Source: Alteromonas macleodii ATCC 27126
GTDB taxonomy: Bacteria > Pseudomonadota > Gammaproteobacteria > Enterobacterales > Alteromonadaceae
Direction: 5' to 3'
DNA length: 64,000 nt
NCBI RefSeq assembly: GCF_000172635.2
Contig: NC_018632.1
Span: 558,001-622,000 of the forward strand
Of the stretch, positions 48,563-56,136 are shown piece by piece (positions within the stretch are counted from its first letter, which is position 1; every line of letters begins with the position of its first letter). The position numbers and the translations under genes were made by a program. The notes beneath the pieces are model-generated. The model was not told the origin of the DNA. It was given only the letters and a program-made list of their open reading frames with translations, and did no database searches.

Positions 48563-49858
48563 ATGATTTTGCGTAGCGTAAAATGGCTTTTGATTACTCT
48601 TGCCATCATTGTTGTTCTGCTTGTAGTAAGCGTTGCTACGATTACGGTTATGGCTGTGCAAAAAACGCCATTAGTCGCATCGACAGCGCCCACACAGCTA
48701 GATGGTGCTGATAGCGTTAATGAACTCCTCGGTCAGCTGCAACAGGCGTTTTCCCGCCGAGAAGAGGGGCATAAAGTTACGCTCACCGAAACCCAAGTCG
48801 AAAGCTTAGTGGGTGTGTTACAGCGTGCATTACCTGACTTTAAGGGCGTAGTGAATATCACGCCGTTGGCGGGAACCATTAACGTCACTTACGCTATCAA
48901 CAATACGGGCTATTATGTAAATGCGTCAGCACTAGTACTGCCTGGAGATAGCTTGCGTATAGAGCAAGTCCAAGTTGGCGACTTAACCATTCCGGGTCGT
49001 TTTTTACTTGGGTTTTTAGAGCGTACGGTGAACTCTTATACGCAATCAGAAATAGCCACCATTGCGTTATCGCGGGTTGAACGTGTGACCATGAGAAGCG
49101 GTGAACTTACCCTTGATGTTGGGCGTTTAGATGAGCTGCTAAGCGAGTTAAACGTGGTGGCGTCGAACATGTCGGTAAGCGAACAGACCGAGCTTCAGCA
49201 GTTATCAGCGTACTATTTACGTTATTTGTCTGGTAGAGAAATAGCCTTATCAAGTAAACCGGTATCCCTTATTGAATACTTGCGCGAGGGGATGGCACGG
49301 GCGAGAGAGCAAAGCCAAACCCCTCAAGATGCAGTACTGCATAATAATGCGGTAATCCTCGCTTTAGCGGTTTACGTTGGGCATCATCGTGTTGGGACTC
49401 TAGTGGGCGACATACAGCCAGATTCCGAAAAAGCGTTAAAGCCTCGCAGAGGTGCTGTGCTGCACAAGCGCAACGATTTGGCTCGTCACTTTATTATTTC
49501 TGCTGCATTAGAGTTAATGGCAGAACAAGGTATGTCCCTAGCAATTGGTGAGTTTAAAGAGCTAATGGACCGGGGCAACGGTGGTTCGGGCTATAGCTTT
49601 GTAGACTTAGCGGCAGACATGTCGGGTACTGAGTTTGCAAAGGTCGCTACCCATCCAAATACAGCGATGGAAGTGCAAAACGCGATTGCGCGCATTCAAA
49701 GTGAACTTGAAATCATCCCGCCTATTGAAGGGCTGCCCGAAGGCTTAAGTAAGCAAGTATTTACCGAGCAGTATCAGCGGGTGGACAGTGAAGCCTATTT
49801 GAAAGAAGTGCAGGAAATTAAGCGGAGAATTGCCTTGCTACCGCTTTATCAAAAATAA
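48563..49858 (+). CDS. Unknown membrane-anchored protein
   Basis: A 431-residue protein with one N-terminal membrane anchor (WLLITLAIIVVLLVVSVATITVMAV) and a large presumably periplasmic domain. I do not recognise the family. The segment 60-200 has repeated beta-like patterns (VVNITPLAGTINVTYAI, YYVNASALVLPGDSLRIEQVQVGDL), followed by a helical part; GRGNGGSGYSFVDLAADMSGTEFAKVA near 345-370 resembles an enzyme-like loop but matches nothing I know. A terminator follows. Confidence 0.65.
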   Translation: MILRSVKWLLITLAIIVVLLVVSVATITVMAVQKTPLVASTAPTQLDGADSVNELLGQLQQAFSRREEGHKVTLTETQVESLVGVLQRALPDFKGVVNITPLAGTINVTYAINNTGYYVNASALVLPGDSLRIEQVQVGDLTIPGRFLLGFLERTVNSYTQSEIATIALSRVERVTMRSGELTLDVGRLDELLSELNVVASNMSVSEQTELQQLSAYYLRYLSGREIALSSKPVSLIEYLREGMARAREQSQTPQDAVLHNNAVILALAVYVGHHRVGTLVGDIQPDSEKALKPRRGAVLHKRNDLARHFIISAALELMAEQGMSLAIGEFKELMDRGNGGSGYSFVDLAADMSGTEFAKVATHPNTAMEVQNAIARIQSELEIIPPIEGLPEGLSKQVFTEQYQRVDSEAYLKEVQEIKRRIALLPLYQK

Positions 49859-49907
49859 GCGGTAAGGCGCGTGAGAGTTCGCCGTAAGCGAGAAGCTAAT
49901 GTCAAAA

Positions 49908-49934
49908 AAAAGCCCGCAAATAAAGCGGGCTTTT
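49908..49934 (+). terminator. Intrinsic terminator
   Basis: Stem AAAAGCCCGC/GCGGGCTTTT (49908-49917 with 49925-49934), loop of seven. A-run and T-run on both sides, so it also serves the minus-strand gene that stops at 49961. Confidence 0.9.
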
Positions 49935-49960
49935 CGTTCATAGGTATATTTTAGTCCGCG

Positions 49961-50293
49961 CTAGCTTTTAGATAGGGATTGCTGAAATTGCGCAATGGTC
50001 ACCAGCGCCAACTCTATTTTTTTAACTAATGGCGCTAGGGCTTGTTTGGCCGCATCATCATCCAGTTCCTTTAGCAATTGCCAGTCATTTGCAATCTCTT
50101 GAACATATGGACCAAAGCGTTTTGCTGATGTGCTAAACCCACTGTCATCTGCGAAAACGGCTGCAAACTTCCCTTTTTGATCGCGCTGTAAACTATCTAG
50201 TATTTGGTCGGCATCAACAGCTTTGCGGTGCAGCGTTTGAAGTGTTTCTTGAAGTTGTTGATGGACAGCTTGCATCTCTTGGCTCTGTTGCAT
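49961..50293 (-). CDS. Small helical protein of unknown function
   Basis: A 110-residue, mostly helical protein (MQQSQEMQAVHQQLQETLQTL, HRKAVDADQILDSLQRDQKG, ELDDDAAKQALAPLVKKIELAL, AQFQQSLSKS). No signal peptide or membrane segment. ATG at 50293 was preferred over 50329 because AAAGG lies seven bases upstream. It could be a coiled-coil accessory factor. I do not recognise it. It is divergent from the sigma-28-controlled YjfB-like gene. Confidence 0.6.
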   Translation of the reverse strand: MQQSQEMQAVHQQLQETLQTLHRKAVDADQILDSLQRDQKGKFAAVFADDSGFSTSAKRFGPYVQEIANDWQLLKELDDDAAKQALAPLVKKIELALVTIAQFQQSLSKS

Positions 50294-50412
50294 GGTCACG
50301 CCTTTTGTTTCTAATGTAATCCGGTGCACGAGTTAGCCGCACACTTAATGTTCATATATATTGCGCAGCTATCATTATATGCTACGCCGAATGTATCACG
50401 GTAAATAATGAT

Positions 50413-50439
50413 TAAAGTTTCGCCTTTCAAGGCCGATAA
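50413..50439 (+). promoter_or_regulatory. Perfect sigma-28 (FliA) promoter
   Basis: TAAAGTTT (50413-50420), an 11-base spacer, and GCCGATAA (50432-50439): every base matches the flagellar sigma-28 consensus, including spacer length. A transcript would begin near 50446, read rightward into the YjfB-like gene, and meet the terminator at 50521. Confidence 0.9.
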
Positions 50440-50445
50440 CCTGAA

Positions 50446-50543
50446 GTCAGTTGTAAATTACGAAGTCTGCGGGTAATTGAGCCGCTTGCTATTTATGTAA
50501 TGGACAACACGCCGTAAGGGTGGGCAATTCTGCCCATTTTTTT
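50446..50543 (+). ncRNA. Candidate sigma-28 leader/small RNA
   Basis: The region from the predicted start to the terminator would form an RNA of about 98 bases. Internal pairings include GTTGT (50450-50454) with ACAAC (50504-50508), enclosing GCGG (50469-50472) with CCGC (50482-50485). A short AATTG (50475-50479) can pair with CAATT (50525-50529) inside the terminator, a weak possible antiterminator. No known riboswitch class was recognised. Whether it is a free small RNA or an attenuated leader is undecided. Confidence 0.5.
50521..50543 (+). terminator. Intrinsic terminator inside a leader
   Basis: Stem TGGGCA/TGCCCA (50521-50526 with 50531-50536), tetraloop ATTC, then seven T (50537-50543). 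G-U pairs can extend the stem. It lies 31 bases before the YjfB-like start, and no plus-strand gene ends upstream, so it acts on the sigma-28 transcript. Confidence 0.85.
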
Positions 50544-50573
50544 ACTTTGCTACAAGCAACAAAGGAAAATGGT

Positions 50574-50765
50574 ATGGATCTACAAGGTACTAGTGCCTCT
50601 GGAACGTCCGGTGCGTCACTTGAGTTGGCCTCTCTTAAGTTGGCAAAAAGCCAGCAAGAGCAAGAGGGAAAAGCGTCGCTTCAGCTGCTGGAATCAGCCG
50701 CTGACGTACCAAAAACGTCATCTTCAAACCCCGCGTTAGGCGCCAACATTGATACCTACGCGTAA
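50574..50765 (+). CDS. YjfB-family putative motility protein
   Basis: A 63-residue protein resembling the YjfB/motility-associated family (PF14070 type): MDLQGTSASGTSGASLELAS, KLAKSQQEQEGKASLQLLES, ending NPALGANIDTYA, the usual family ending. Role unknown; the family occurs in flagellated bacteria and the upstream promoter is a perfect sigma-28 site, which supports a motility role by inference. SD AAAGGAAAA lies before ATG at 50574. It converges with epmB with one base between stops. Confidence 0.78.
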   Translation: MDLQGTSASGTSGASLELASLKLAKSQQEQEGKASLQLLESAADVPKTSSSNPALGANIDTYA

Positions 50766-50766
50766 G

Positions 50767-51792
50767 TTACGGATGCAAATGTAAGTCGATAGGCGTTTTG
50801 CCGGGTTGACCGCCAATTTCTCTCACCAGTTTTGGCACCAAGAAGCCCGGCAGACGCTTTATCGCTTCTTCCATAATTTCGCGGCCTTCATCATCACTCA
50901 CATAAAAATGACTCGCACCCTGCACTTTATCTAACACGTGCAAGTAATAGGGCAGTACTCCAGCCTCAAATAGCGTTTCACTTAAATCACTTATGGCATC
51001 GCCGGAATCGTTTACACCTTTTAGCAATACCGACTGATTGAGCAGAGTCACACCTCTCTCTCGTAGTGTTTTTAATCGGGATTTTAGCGTTTCTGACATC
51101 TCATTTGCGTGGTTTGCATGCAGCACTAATACTTTTTGAAGCGGCAATGCGGTAAACCATTCAACAAAGTCATGGCTAATTCGTTCTGGTAGCACTACCG
51201 GCAGACGGCTATGAATACGCAGGCGTTTTATATGGGGAATGGTGGTAATTTCGTTGGCTAACCACGACAAATGTTCATCTTTCGCCATCAGTGGGTCGCC
51301 ACCTGAAAAAATCACCTCATTAATTTTGTTATTACTGCGAAGGTATTCAAGCACATCAAGCCATTGGTGCTTACTTACCGCATTGTCGGCGTATGGAAAA
51401 TGGCGGCGAAAACAGTAACGGCAGTTTACTGCACAGCCAGTGCGAACCATTAACAACACGCGAGAATCGTATTTGTGCAGTATGCCTTTGCCTGCGGTGT
51501 CGTGCTCGTCTAACGGATCTTCGCTATAACCGGGTGATGTTAGGAATTCATCGCTGAGCGGCATGACTTGCAAAAACAGCGGGTCGTTGGGATTTTCTTT
51601 TTCCATCAGATCCACAAAATGTCGTGGAACACGCATAGGAAAAAGACGACGTGCTTTAATGTGTTGTGCGTATTTTTCTTGGTCTAAACCTAAGTGTTGC
51701 AATAGCTTTGCAGGATCAGTAAAGCTACTTGCTAATTCTTTTTGCCAGTTATGCTCTACAGAAATCGGTTTTTTAGGTATTATTTGTTCCAC
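50767..51792 (-). CDS. epmB: EF-P lysine 2,3-aminomutase EpmB
   Basis: EpmB is the radical-SAM enzyme that converts alpha-lysine to beta-lysine for elongation factor P. The 341-residue protein has the CxxxCxxC cluster in [39 protein letters not shown] and [14 protein letters not shown]. The start at 51792 leaves 36 bases to the efp start on the other strand, so the two promoters must overlap or lie inside coding sequence. Confidence 0.95.
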
Positions 51793-51828
51793 GAAACTTT
51801 TTGTACCTTATGTTTAGACAGAGGAATT

Positions 51829-52398
51829 ATGGCTAATTACAGCACTAACGAGTTCAAAGGCGGCCTGAAAATCATGCTGGACGGCGAACCTTGCAACATT
51901 CTAGAAAACGAATACGTAAAGCCGGGTAAGGGCCAAGCGTTTAACCGCGTAAAAATCCGCAAGCTTATTTCAGGTAAAGTTTTAGAAAAAACTTTCCGCT
52001 CAGGTGAATCAGTAGAAGGCGCTGACGTAATGGATACGGAACTTGCCTACTTGTACACCGACGGCGAATTCTACCACTTTATGAACAACGATACATTCGA
52101 ACAAATCGCTGCAGACGAAAAAGCGGTAGGCGAGAATACCAAGTGGTTGGTAGAAAACGACGTTTGCACCATTACACTGTGGAACGGTTCACCTATCACA
52201 GTAACGCCGCCAAACTTCGTTGAGCTTGAAATCACTGAAACTGATCCTGGTCTTAAAGGTGATACAGCAGGTACTGGTGGTAAGCCAGCAACGCTTAGCA
52301 CTGGTGCAGTTGTTCGCGTTCCTCTATTCGTTCAAACAGGCGAAGTTATCCGTGTAGATACGCGCTCTGGCGAATACGTGTCTCGCGCACAAAAATAA
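51829..52398 (+). CDS. efp: Elongation factor P
   Basis: EF-P relieves ribosome stalling at polyproline. The 189-residue protein has three beta domains and the modified lysine K34 in KPGKGQAF, followed by [15 protein letters not shown], the TGTEDADSVE-like block, and the C-terminal [10 protein letters not shown] at 51829 with GAGG upstream; a longer frame starting inside the epmB region is not used. With epmB and epmA adjacent, this is a complete beta-lysylation cassette (hydroxylation factor EpmC is not seen). Confidence 0.97.
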
Positions 52399-52424
52399 TA
52401 TCTGAGACATTCTGTATACGTGTA

Positions 52425-52453
52425 AAGCCGGTGCCTTAGTGTACCGGTTTTTT
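52425..52453 (+). terminator. Terminator between efp and epmA
   Basis: Eight-base stem with one G-U pair (52425-52432 with 52443-52450) closed by a ten-base loop and followed by T-rich sequence. It is 27 bases past the efp stop, so efp can be transcribed alone. Confidence 0.75.
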
Positions 52454-52483
52454 GTTTTAGCTATTCTTTTTAGGTTTGAATAC

Positions 52484-53452
52484 ATGCAATCTTGGCAGCC
52501 TACTACCACTTATGAAGCCCGTGTTGCGCGAGCAGAATTACTCAGAACAATCCGTGAGTTTTTTTACGCAAGAAACGTGTTAGAGGTCGATACGCCTTTA
52601 CTTTCAAACGGTACGGTTACCGATGAGCATTTAGATGCGTTTGATACACAATTCAATTTTGCCTCATCCGGTAAGCCAACTACGCTGTATCTTCAAACTT
52701 CCCCTGAATATGCCATGAAGCGGTTACTGTGCGCTGACAGCGGTAGTATTTACCAAGTGTGTAAAGCGTTTCGCCATGAAGGTGAAGGGCGCTGGCACAA
52801 TCCAGAGTTTACCATGCTAGAGTGGTACCGCTTAGGTTTTGATCATTTTGCGCTAATGGACGAGGTTGACGCCTTGCTGCAAGAAACCTTAAACACGGCT
52901 TCGGCCGATAAGATGACGTATCAGCAAGCTTTTCAAACCTATTTAAATATTGACCCGTTAAGTGCTGATAACGACGTTTTGCTAAAGGCAATGGAAGAGC
53001 AGAACATAGATATTCATGCGCCGCAAAATCTAAGCTATGACAGTAAGTTACAACTGTTATTCAGCTATGCAATCGAACCTAAAATCGGTAACGAAAAACC
53101 GTGCTTCATCTACGATTTCCCTGCTTCTCAGGCGGCGCTTGCTAAACTAAGCCCAGTTGATGAACGGGTTGCCGAACGCTTTGAGGTGTATTACCAAGGC
53201 GCTGAACTTGCTAACGGTTTTCATGAGTTAAGTGCAGCAAAAGAGCAGCGGCTGCGCTTTGAAACGGATAACAGAAAGCGCGAAGAACATGGCCTTCCCA
53301 CTAAGCCCATTGATGAAAACTTTCTAAGTGCGCTTGACGCAGGTTTGCCACCGTGTGCGGGTGTGGCGCTGGGCATCGATCGTTTGCTTATGCTTAAAAC
53401 CAATGCAAAACACATACAAGAAGTGATCAACTTTACGGTAAGCAGAGCTTAG
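52484..53452 (+). CDS. epmA: EF-P beta-lysine ligase EpmA
   Basis: EpmA (GenX/PoxA) is a lysyl-tRNA synthetase paralogue that attaches beta-lysine to K34 of EF-P. The 322 residues (E. coli 325) hold the class II motifs: EVDTPLLSNGTVTDEHLDAF, FRHEGEGRWHNPEFTMLEWYRLG and the glycine-rich GVALGIDRLLML, and lack an anticodon-binding domain. ATG at 52484 matches E. coli; the frame reaches back to 52439, inside the terminator. Confidence 0.95.
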   Translation: MQSWQPTTTYEARVARAELLRTIREFFYARNVLEVDTPLLSNGTVTDEHLDAFDTQFNFASSGKPTTLYLQTSPEYAMKRLLCADSGSIYQVCKAFRHEGEGRWHNPEFTMLEWYRLGFDHFALMDEVDALLQETLNTASADKMTYQQAFQTYLNIDPLSADNDVLLKAMEEQNIDIHAPQNLSYDSKLQLLFSYAIEPKIGNEKPCFIYDFPASQAALAKLSPVDERVAERFEVYYQGAELANGFHELSAAKEQRLRFETDNRKREEHGLPTKPIDENFLSALDAGLPPCAGVALGIDRLLMLKTNAKHIQEVINFTVSRA

Positions 53453-53625: not shown

Positions 53626-56136
53626 ATGAAAATGCGTTCGCTGCTAAGTTTGTCCATAGCAGGGCTGTTAAGTGCGCCTGTGTATGCCACCACAGTAACG
53701 GGAAAAGTCACCGACACGGCAGGGCAACCTGTTGCAGGGGCTGAAGTAAAGATTGAAGGCAGCCGCCGTGTAGCATACACCGATGCAAATGGTATTTACC
53801 GTTTTGACGATGTAAAGCAGCCACACATTCATTTACATGTTTATTCTTCTAACTACATTCATGGTGATAACGACTTAGGCGACGTAAATACGGATCAAAA
53901 TGTAGACTTCGTTTTAAAGCCTGCATCCGTCGAAAATATCGTGGTTACCGCCAATGCGCTTCAATCATCAGTACTGGAATCTGTTACGCCAGTGACCGTA
54001 ATTGGTGCTGAAAAATTACGTAAAATAGAAGCACCAACCTTAGGGGAAACCCTAAAAAACGCGCCTGGTGTGCACAGCACTTATTTTGGCCCGGTTTCAA
54101 GCAGCCCAGTTATTCGCGGTAACGATGGCCCGCGTGTCAAGATTGTTCAAAACGGTTTGGATGTATCTGATGTATCTCGAGTAGGTCCAGATCACAATGT
54201 CGCCACCACACTCTCAAGTGCAACGCAGGTGGAAGTACTTCGCGGTCCTGCGACGCTTCAATACGGCAGTGGCGCTATTGGTGGTGTTGTAAACGTTGTT
54301 GACAAACGTATTCCTCAGTATCAGATAGACGGCGTAGAAGGCGAAGCCGAGACCAGCTACAGCACAGTAAATAACGGTTCTTATACCCGTGCTGATGTAA
54401 CTGGCGGAAGCGGTAATATCGTATGGCATGTAGATGGCTTTTATCGCGACACAGACAATGCTGACATCCCAGACTTCGCATCTATCGACCCCGATGAAGA
54501 TGAACCAAACGGTGTGCTAGAAAGCAGCGCAATGGAGACGCGTAACGTCGTTGCAGGTTTATCTTACGTGGCCGAAGAAGGCTACTTCGGTTTTGCTGTT
54601 GAACAACTCGACAATAAATATGGCGTACCTGGCCATAGTCATGCTCATGGTGAGGAAGAGCACGATGAAGAGCATGAGGGCGAAGACCACGACCTTGAAG
54701 AACATGATCATGAAGAACACGCTGAAGAAGGCGTGTTACTTGATGTAGATATGACCCGTTATCAAGCAGCCGGTGAGTGGCACTCTCCAGTACGTGGACT
54801 TACAAACCTTAAGTTTGCCGCAGCCTACACCGATTACGAACATGCTGAAATTGAAGACGGTGAACCAGGTACTGTATTTACTAATGAGTCGAGCGATATC
54901 CGTCTTTCTGCTTACCACGAAGAAGTGAACGGCTGGCACGGCGTATTCGGGCTACAGTTTAATCATAGCGATTACAATGCCGTAGGCGAAGAAGCCTTTA
55001 CCCCCGCTAATACTACATCGAGCTACGCACTTTATGTTATAGAACAAAAGAAAGTAGGTGATGTAACCTTTGAGCTTGGTGGCCGACTAGAGCGAACGAC
55101 TTTGGATGCTGACGCAAGCGAAGTAGAACTTGACGTTTTACATGAAGAACATGATGAGCATGAAGGTGAGGAGCACGAAGGCGAAGAGCACGATGAAGAG
55201 CATGAGGGTGAAGAACATGAAGAGCACGCTGTTGCTTTCAACTTCCCTGATTATGACTTCACCAGCCTGTCGCTTTCAGCGGGCGCTAACTGGGAATACC
55301 AGGAAGGACACTCTATTGCAGTGACTTTATCACGCAGCGAACGCGCGCCTAGCCAGCAAGAACTTTTCTCTGCTGGCCAGCACTTAGCAACGCAAAGCTA
55401 CGAAGTAGGTCTAGTATTTGATATGGACGAGGAAGGCCATATCGAAGAAACACTTAAAGGCGTAAAAGAAGAAGTTAGTACCAACCTAGATATTACTTTC
55501 CGTAAGTTTACCGGAAGCTGGGGCTACAGTGCGTCGTTCTTCTACAATCAAGCAGATGACTATATCTTCCAAACAAGCACAGGCTTAATTGCGCTCAGCG
55601 AGCACGAAGAACACGATGAGCACGAAGAGGAAGGATTAGAAAGCGAGCACGAAGAATATGGACATGATGAACACGGCGATGAAGAAGGCTTGCCAATTTA
55701 TTATTTCCAACAGGCTGACGCTGACATCTGGGGCTTTGAAGCAGAAACTTACGTTGATTTAACAGACACGCTACGCTTAACCGTATTTGGTGACTATATC
55801 CGCGCAGAAATTGAAGACGACAACCTTCCGCGCACGCCGCCTATGCGCTTTGGTAGTGAATTAAGCTACGTGAACGATGGTTTAAGTGCTGACGTTGGCT
55901 TTACGTGGTACGACGACCAAAATGACGTTGCGTCATTTGAGACTGCAACCGACGGCTACACCTTGGTTAACGCAAGCGTGCAATATGAGTTTGGCACGCA
56001 GGGCATTGACTGGGTAGTGTTTGCGCGCGGTGAAAACCTAACTGACGAGGAAGCCCGTGTTCATACATCTTTCTTAAAAGACCAAGCACCGCTTCCAGGT
56101 AGAAACTTTACTATGGGTGTGAGAGCGTTGTTTTAA
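53626..56136 (+). CDS. Zinc-type TonB-dependent receptor (ZnuD-like)
   Basis: An 836-residue outer-membrane receptor that would import a metal or metallophore with TonB energy. Order: signal peptide (MKMRSLLSLSIAGLLSAPVYA), a carboxypeptidase-regulatory-like domain (about 22-95), a TonB plug with the SRVGPDHNVATTLS and GPATLQYGSGAIGGVVNVVD motifs, and a beta-barrel ending in FTMGVRALF. Three loops are extremely rich in His, Glu and Asp (about residues 338-370, 505-535 and 657-690). This fits ZnuD-like zinc receptors, and the upstream Zur boxes agree. Zinc as substrate is inferred. Confidence 0.9.
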   Translation: MKMRSLLSLSIAGLLSAPVYATTVTGKVTDTAGQPVAGAEVKIEGSRRVAYTDANGIYRFDDVKQPHIHLHVYSSNYIHGDNDLGDVNTDQNVDFVLKPASVENIVVTANALQSSVLESVTPVTVIGAEKLRKIEAPTLGETLKNAPGVHSTYFGPVSSSPVIRGNDGPRVKIVQNGLDVSDVSRVGPDHNVATTLSSATQVEVLRGPATLQYGSGAIGGVVNVVDKRIPQYQIDGVEGEAETSYSTVNNGSYTRADVTGGSGNIVWHVDGFYRDTDNADIPDFASIDPDEDEPNGVLESSAMETRNVVAGLSYVAEEGYFGFAVEQLDNKYGVPGHSHAHGEEEHDEEHEGEDHDLEEHDHEEHAEEGVLLDVDMTRYQAAGEWHSPVRGLTNLKFAAAYTDYEHAEIEDGEPGTVFTNESSDIRLSAYHEEVNGWHGVFGLQFNHSDYNAVGEEAFTPANTTSSYALYVIEQKKVGDVTFELGGRLERTTLDADASEVELDVLHEEHDEHEGEEHEGEEHDEEHEGEEHEEHAVAFNFPDYDFTSLSLSAGANWEYQEGHSIAVTLSRSERAPSQQELFSAGQHLATQSYEVGLVFDMDEEGHIEETLKGVKEEVSTNLDITFRKFTGSWGYSASFFYNQADDYIFQTSTGLIALSEHEEHDEHEEEGLESEHEEYGHDEHGDEEGLPIYYFQQADADIWGFEAETYVDLTDTLRLTVFGDYIRAEIEDDNLPRTPPMRFGSELSYVNDGLSADVGFTWYDDQNDVASFETATDGYTLVNASVQYEFGTQGIDWVVFARGENLTDEEARVHTSFLKDQAPLPGRNFTMGVRALF

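Follow-up and report, generated by a model that had tools for sequence, protein, structure and literature searches.

The gene for a YjfB-like putative motility protein in Alteromonas macleodii ATCC 27126 is preceded by a sigma-28 promoter and by a leader with two hairpins, H1 and H2, which is conserved among relatives, covaries at its paired positions, departs from perfect pairing in the manner of RNA and lies, in most relatives, at the predicted start of the transcript. On balance, we favor the interpretation that the two hairpins form the 5' leader of a sigma-28 mRNA, a leader that probably shields the start of the message and is read by a partner via its loops. It is known only from the family of the window, the window being the whole 64,000-nucleotide stretch analyzed here (NC_018632.1, positions 558,001 to 622,000). 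H1 appears to be an old RNA structure that makes up the first bases of the mRNA in most relatives examined, and a leader that protects or tunes its message is more likely than a separate small RNA. What was suspected to be a small RNA of one genome is thus a covarying leader element, traceable through the family and absent from Rfam, on a flagellar gene.

In the window the order is promoter, 78 bases, H1 with seven T, H2, AAAGGA and the 63-codon gene, with the following features:

50413..50439, + strand: sigma-28 promoter, perfect consensus with a spacer of 11, found in the genome and window scans and kept in the genus
50445, + strand: predicted transcription start (+1), placed by analogy to E. 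coli aer and uncertain by about 2 bases
50440..50517, + strand: clade-specific insert, weakly hairpin-forming, with TTGT...ACAA ends, possibly a decayed palindromic element
50520..50537, + strand: hairpin H1, GTGGGCA-ATTC-TGCCCAT (5' arm 50520-50526, loop ATTC 50527-50530, 3' arm 50531-50537)
50537..50543, + strand: T tract, 7 T in the window, with at least 4 T after the core in 80 of 85 leaders
50547..50559, + strand: small hairpin H2, TTGC-TACAA-GCAA
50561..50566, + strand: putative ribosome-binding site AAAGGA, assigned by sequence, position and conservation
50574..50765, + strand: YjfB-like putative motility protein, 63 aa, with a conserved start at 50574

The initial annotation had described a perfect sigma-28 promoter and a seven-T hairpin ahead of a YjfB-like gene, and both were confirmed. 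The promoter reads TAAAGTTT-N11-GCCGATAA with 0 mismatches, compared with 0.00 such sites expected from 100 shuffles of the window, and the seven T's occupy 50537-50543. A pattern scan found it to be the sole 0-mismatch sigma-28 site in the 4.65 Mb genome; since a control pattern with reversed letters also gave 1 match in the genome, this lone match is weak proof by itself. The proposed sigma-28 control of the gene is supported by the relatives, as a site agreeing with the sigma-28 consensus in 12-16 of 16 letters, with a spacer of 11, lies ahead of the gene in all 57 genus genomes that have it. A flagellin gene of the same genome has a sigma-28 site with 1 mismatch. The predicted +1 was placed six bases beyond the -10 octamer, a rule taken from E. 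coli aer, whose start was mapped 6 bp downstream of the -10 octamer (PMC2859248). An RNA from this position to the end of the T run would measure 99 nt.

The encoded protein is similar to YjfB in size, in its C-terminal sequence and in its sigma-28 promoter, and scores below the cut-off of Pfam PF14070 (YjfB_motility; 23.5 bits, E 5.7e-5, against 27). Seven of 10 relatives matched PF14070 at E <=0.01, with a best value of 4.6e-7. The gene is convergent with epmB (TIGR03821, 484 bits); the two stop codons are one base apart (50763-50767) with no terminator seen between them, so that the two transcripts probably overlap. The region 50767-53452 holds a cluster of epmB, an elongation factor P-like ORF and an EpmA-like tRNA-synthetase-fold gene (PF00152). 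On the - strand, a 122-aa ORF at 49961-50329, divergent from the yjfB promoter, had no Pfam or NCBIfam match. Elsewhere in the window, an 836-aa ORF at 53626-56136 is TonB-dependent receptor-like by eye and contains several His/Glu/Asp-rich stretches, possibly metal-related.

For the comparison of leaders, 113 sequences were reduced to 90 distinct 63-mers, of which 85 were used as rows. Left out were L033 (containing an N), L225 (wrong start codon), L145 (no H1), and L228 and L233, in which extra sequence places H1 beyond the 60 bases; L234 and L235, which have no ORF, were uncounted, and H1 is visible in both. A protein search supplied 36 of the 85 rows; the remaining 49 derive largely (47) from an RNA-model search for H1 itself, a source biased toward conserved rows. 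Identities were also compared in 40 rows chosen by protein alone.

Among the 85 distinct leaders, 95.2% of the H1 cells are paired with double changes at 4 of 10 pairs, and 86.4% of the H2 cells are paired with double changes at 4 of 4, compared to 41-51% in controls with slid partners. None of 500 shuffles was as high in paired cells and covariation score, in a test in which kinship between rows is uncorrected. The initial annotation had named conservation of the stem pairs in related genomes as a check of its proposal, and the stem proved conserved as well as covarying. When the 7-bp core of H1 departs from standard pairing, it does so through G-U or U-G in 92 cells vs A-C or C-A in 5, and over the 54 distinct H1 cores the counts are 60 vs 5. 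Because the symmetry of a DNA palindrome would favor neither, this large excess of G-U indicates that H1 acts as RNA.

Conservation extends to the unpaired bases. Loop identity over the 85 rows is 80% for H1 and 91% for H2, which exceeds the needs of a passive clamp and hints at a partner. In the 40 protein-chosen rows, identity is 89 and 80% in the two H1 arms, 83% in the H1 loop, 83% in the H2 loop and 100% in the four T's, against 28% in the spacer and 60% at third codon positions. The four T's after the stem are also the best-kept bases over the 85 rows (95%). The first T's pair with the purine-rich foot of H1 (237 outer cells; A-U in 137 and G-U in 97 of the 253 counted), and in the window the basal pairs of H1 reach outward to 50517 and 50540. 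This pairing can explain the conservation of the T's without termination; termination can explain it too.

A match to the YjfB-like protein is present in 57 of 59 genus genomes, and at these loci, picked by protein alone, H1 is present in 57 of 57. The other two genomes (G005 and G048) have flagellin genes, and neither a match to the YjfB-like protein nor a strong leader match was found in them. The 7-bp core of H1 lies 8-10 bases after the -10 octamer in 42 of the 57 genomes, 46 bases after it in G054, 38 in G042, and 52-96 in 13 genomes. These 13, the window's included, form one clade with a local support of 0.932 in a tree of the neighboring region. Across the family, 76 of 85 distinct leaders have H1 7-10 bases from the -10 box, so that by the start rule above the 10-bp helix falls between -1 and +3; the other nine comprise seven inserts and two short gaps of 4 (L219) and 5 (L160) bases, the promoter call of L160 being poor (9/16 letters). 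Within the 11-base promoter spacer and the 5 bases that follow the -10 octamer, identity is down to 28%, a saturated level, so the distance between promoter and H1 is kept though the letters there are not. Judged by predicted starts, the transcript therefore begins with a helix in the family (76/85) and not with H1 in the window, where the weak hairpin of the insert begins about 5 bases from the predicted 5' end. The initial annotation had proposed a leader RNA of about 98 bases; such a design is unsupported family-wide, since termination at a 5'-terminal H1, the arrangement in 42/57 genus genomes and 76/85 family leaders, would yield an RNA of only about 27-32 nt.

At E <=0.01, a covariance model built from the leader matched in 94 of the 295 genomes of the family, a count that leaves gene presence aside, and 68 of the matches fell below 1e-7, all of which were read except those in G348 and G256. 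By eye, an H1-like hairpin was seen at 17 of 18 further loci under Alteromonas, Aestuariibacter, Marisediminitalea-like, Bowmanella and Glaciecola labels, and in none of 11 loci under other labels from the protein search of named genomes. An exception is L145 (Bowmanella sp. JS7-9), which has the gene and a sigma-28 promoter but a different leader replacing H1. Four genomes from outside the family that also matched the gene have a sigma-28-like site and lack H1. The model also matched outside the family in 5 of 345 genomes of an order sample at E <=1e-4; all 6 places were plain terminators ahead of other genes, and an element outside the family was rejected.

Within the window's genome, no second copy of H1 was found at up to 1 mismatch, and in both of the sites found at 2-3 mismatches the stem is disrupted; a shared operator or second genomic copy was accordingly rejected. 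The one sigma-28 flagellin leader compared has no H1-like start. The leader had no match in Rfam, at gathering scores or up to E 1, which agrees with the earlier statement that no riboswitch class was recognizable.

The terminator shape ascribed to H1 is supported in the window, where its d-score, by the formula as applied here, is 22.7 (rank 8 of 85), that of a good predicted terminator. Over the 85 leaders the d-score exceeds 0 in 47, with a median of 1.7, and the stem is kept without the T tract in two (A. sediminis L137 and G325 L229). A scan of 49000-52000 gave 3 terminator-like sites vs 3.7 expected by chance, so that H1 stands out by its conservation and not by the terminator scan. An anti-terminator pairing of AATTG (50475-50479) with CAATT (50525-50529) had also been suggested and did not hold up, AATTG being present in 1 of 13 clade inserts, the window's own.

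Members of the window's clade carry an insert of 50-94 bases between the -10 octamer and H1's foot, and both its length and its sequence change fast. Eight of the 13 clade members have inserts that fold with at most 5 of 300 shuffles as stable, and five do not; the window's own fold is insignificant (57/300), and 40 control windows gave a mean z of -0.9 with an sd of 1.4. RNAalifold found no structure in the aligned clade inserts, which counts against a conserved pairing pattern there. A two-state fold of CGCC with GGUG, setting the U tract against the ribosome-binding site in some minimum free energy folds of the clade, was dropped as its CGCC side is unkept in the clade. The inserts of G054 and G042 are unrelated and form hairpins (1 and 0 of 300 shuffles equally stable), and that of G156 is a long palindrome with 54 partial matches in its genome. 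In all, hairpin formation is seen in four separate inserts that part the promoter from H1 (window clade, G054, G042 and G156), clearly so in three.

The palindrome of G156 (L194, C1:627957-628137) is a dispersed MITE-like element with the terminal repeat GAGCGTGTTGATCTTTGCGGT. It has matches in 8 of 10 genomes searched, and partial ones number 54 in G156, 24 in G019 and 6 in the window's genome. At least one end resembles this terminal repeat in 10 of 13 clade inserts (p <0.03, uncorrected and among related sequences). Because of this resemblance, the clade insert may plausibly stem from an old palindromic, decayed-MITE element, a suggestion drawn from sequence likeness. The window insert itself was rejected as a repeated element, matching only itself in its own genome; the longest clade insert (L013) matched only relatives at the same site, apart from two 25-base matches at E 0.058.

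The usual transcript would open directly with H1, whose purine-rich foot would pair with the first U's and place the 5' end in or near a helix, followed by H2 with its ACAAG loop region and then by the ribosome-binding site. Both RNase E and RppH depend on 5' ends being single-stranded (PMC3997798), and a helix at +1 should for this reason slow 5'-end-dependent decay by these enzymes, which may give a long-lived late flagellar message. The conserved loops and the U tract would be read by a partner, possibly an RNA, or a protein, for example Hfq. The insert of the window's clade would have moved the promoter about 70 bases from H1, so that H1 came to look like a mid-leader terminator. The shielding would be weaker in the window, as about 5 bases precede the first predicted pair.

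Among the alternatives, the one closest to the proposal of the initial annotation is that sigma-28 transcripts mostly end at H1, so that the window's clade makes an RNA of about 99 nt and read-through into yjfB is regulated. We consider this possible but rather improbable. The seven T's and the d-score of H1 fit it, as does the retention of promoter, insert and H1 in all 13 clade genomes. E. coli, whose sigma-28-dependent small RNAs the initial annotation had mentioned, offers a precedent: the sigma-28 RNA MotR has the proposed shape, with read-through of its terminator reaching motAB (PMC10578931), so the window's own clade may have a small RNA of this kind. However, the same design would leave about 27-32 nt in 42 of the 57 genus genomes, barely more than half of the family's leaders score above 0 as terminators, and two have lost the T tract. 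The insert of the clade shifts quickly in sequence and length (50-94 nt), unlike a base-pairing RNA, and the anti-terminator pair is confined to 1 of 13 clade genomes. Moreover, the 7-T tract is found in genomes with no insert, such as G007 and G025, and is therefore no adaptation to the insert. A terminator-gated small RNA is possible as a late by-product.

Two further readings treat H1 as something other than a leader structure, and we regard both as very unlikely. As an ordinary terminator, H1 could insulate yjfB from upstream read-through: transcripts arriving from upstream would carry the full terminator, while those initiated at the start site would escape, the hairpin with its U tract lying at +1 and forming too early. 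Against this, the next gene upstream (49961-50329) runs in the opposite direction and the upstream gene on the + strand carries a hairpin with T's of its own, at about 49906-49935; the conservation of the loop and of H2 is also left unexplained. Least probable of all is a DNA operator, an inverted repeat at +1 that binds a repressor dimer controlling sigma-28 initiation at yjfB. The palindrome does sit exactly over the start site in species with no insert, and its center is well conserved. Nevertheless, its departures from symmetry (92 G-U vs 5 A-C) are of a kind relevant to RNA only, the T tract is one-sided, the genome has no other copy within 1 mismatch and those at 2-3 break the stem, and H1 stays intact when 38-186 bases from the promoter.

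Beyond the favored protective leader, we tentatively entertain a stronger version, which we think less likely to be right than wrong: that the leader is a new family-specific cis-regulatory class, defined by a terminator-shaped hairpin at +1, an invariant A-U start of the loop, U4 and a hairpin with an ACAAG loop, whose partner would govern how much of a late flagellar protein is made, or when, and which would tolerate promoter displacement, with palindromic inserts restoring a 5' hairpin. The relatives amount to a natural experiment on whether the mRNA must begin with a helix, since most start with H1 and the four inserts are hairpin-forming. They also carry a caution, in that a 'terminator in a leader' seen in a single genome can be a displaced 5' hairpin. 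For A. macleodii Te101, a published primary transcriptome lists 2280 start sites and 127 + 11 small RNAs, and no mention of this gene or leader was found in the accessible part of that report (PMC5864184). A literature search, with subscription papers mostly outside its coverage, found no description of the leader.

Several known systems share parts of this design. Stabilizing 5'-terminal stem-loops were reportedly described on the E. coli ompA and papA mRNAs by Emory, Bouvet and Belasco in 1992 and by Bricker and Belasco in 1999. The leader is like them in having a stem-loop at or near the mRNA 5' end, upstream of the ribosome-binding site, and unlike them in that its loop, U tract and second hairpin are conserved in sequence and its mRNA is sigma-28-dependent; its stabilizing effect is inferred. 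With MotR, which lies before motA in E. coli, it has in common a sigma-28 promoter, a short leader and a predicted terminator before a flagellar gene, with read-through possible (PMC10578931). The leaders of most relatives are, however, too short for such an RNA, and that of the insert clade is unconserved in sequence. Finally, H1 resembles intrinsic (Rho-independent) terminators in its GC-rich stem, tetraloop and T tract, but differs from them in lying at +1 in most relatives and in having a conserved loop, while T tract and stem strength are not kept.
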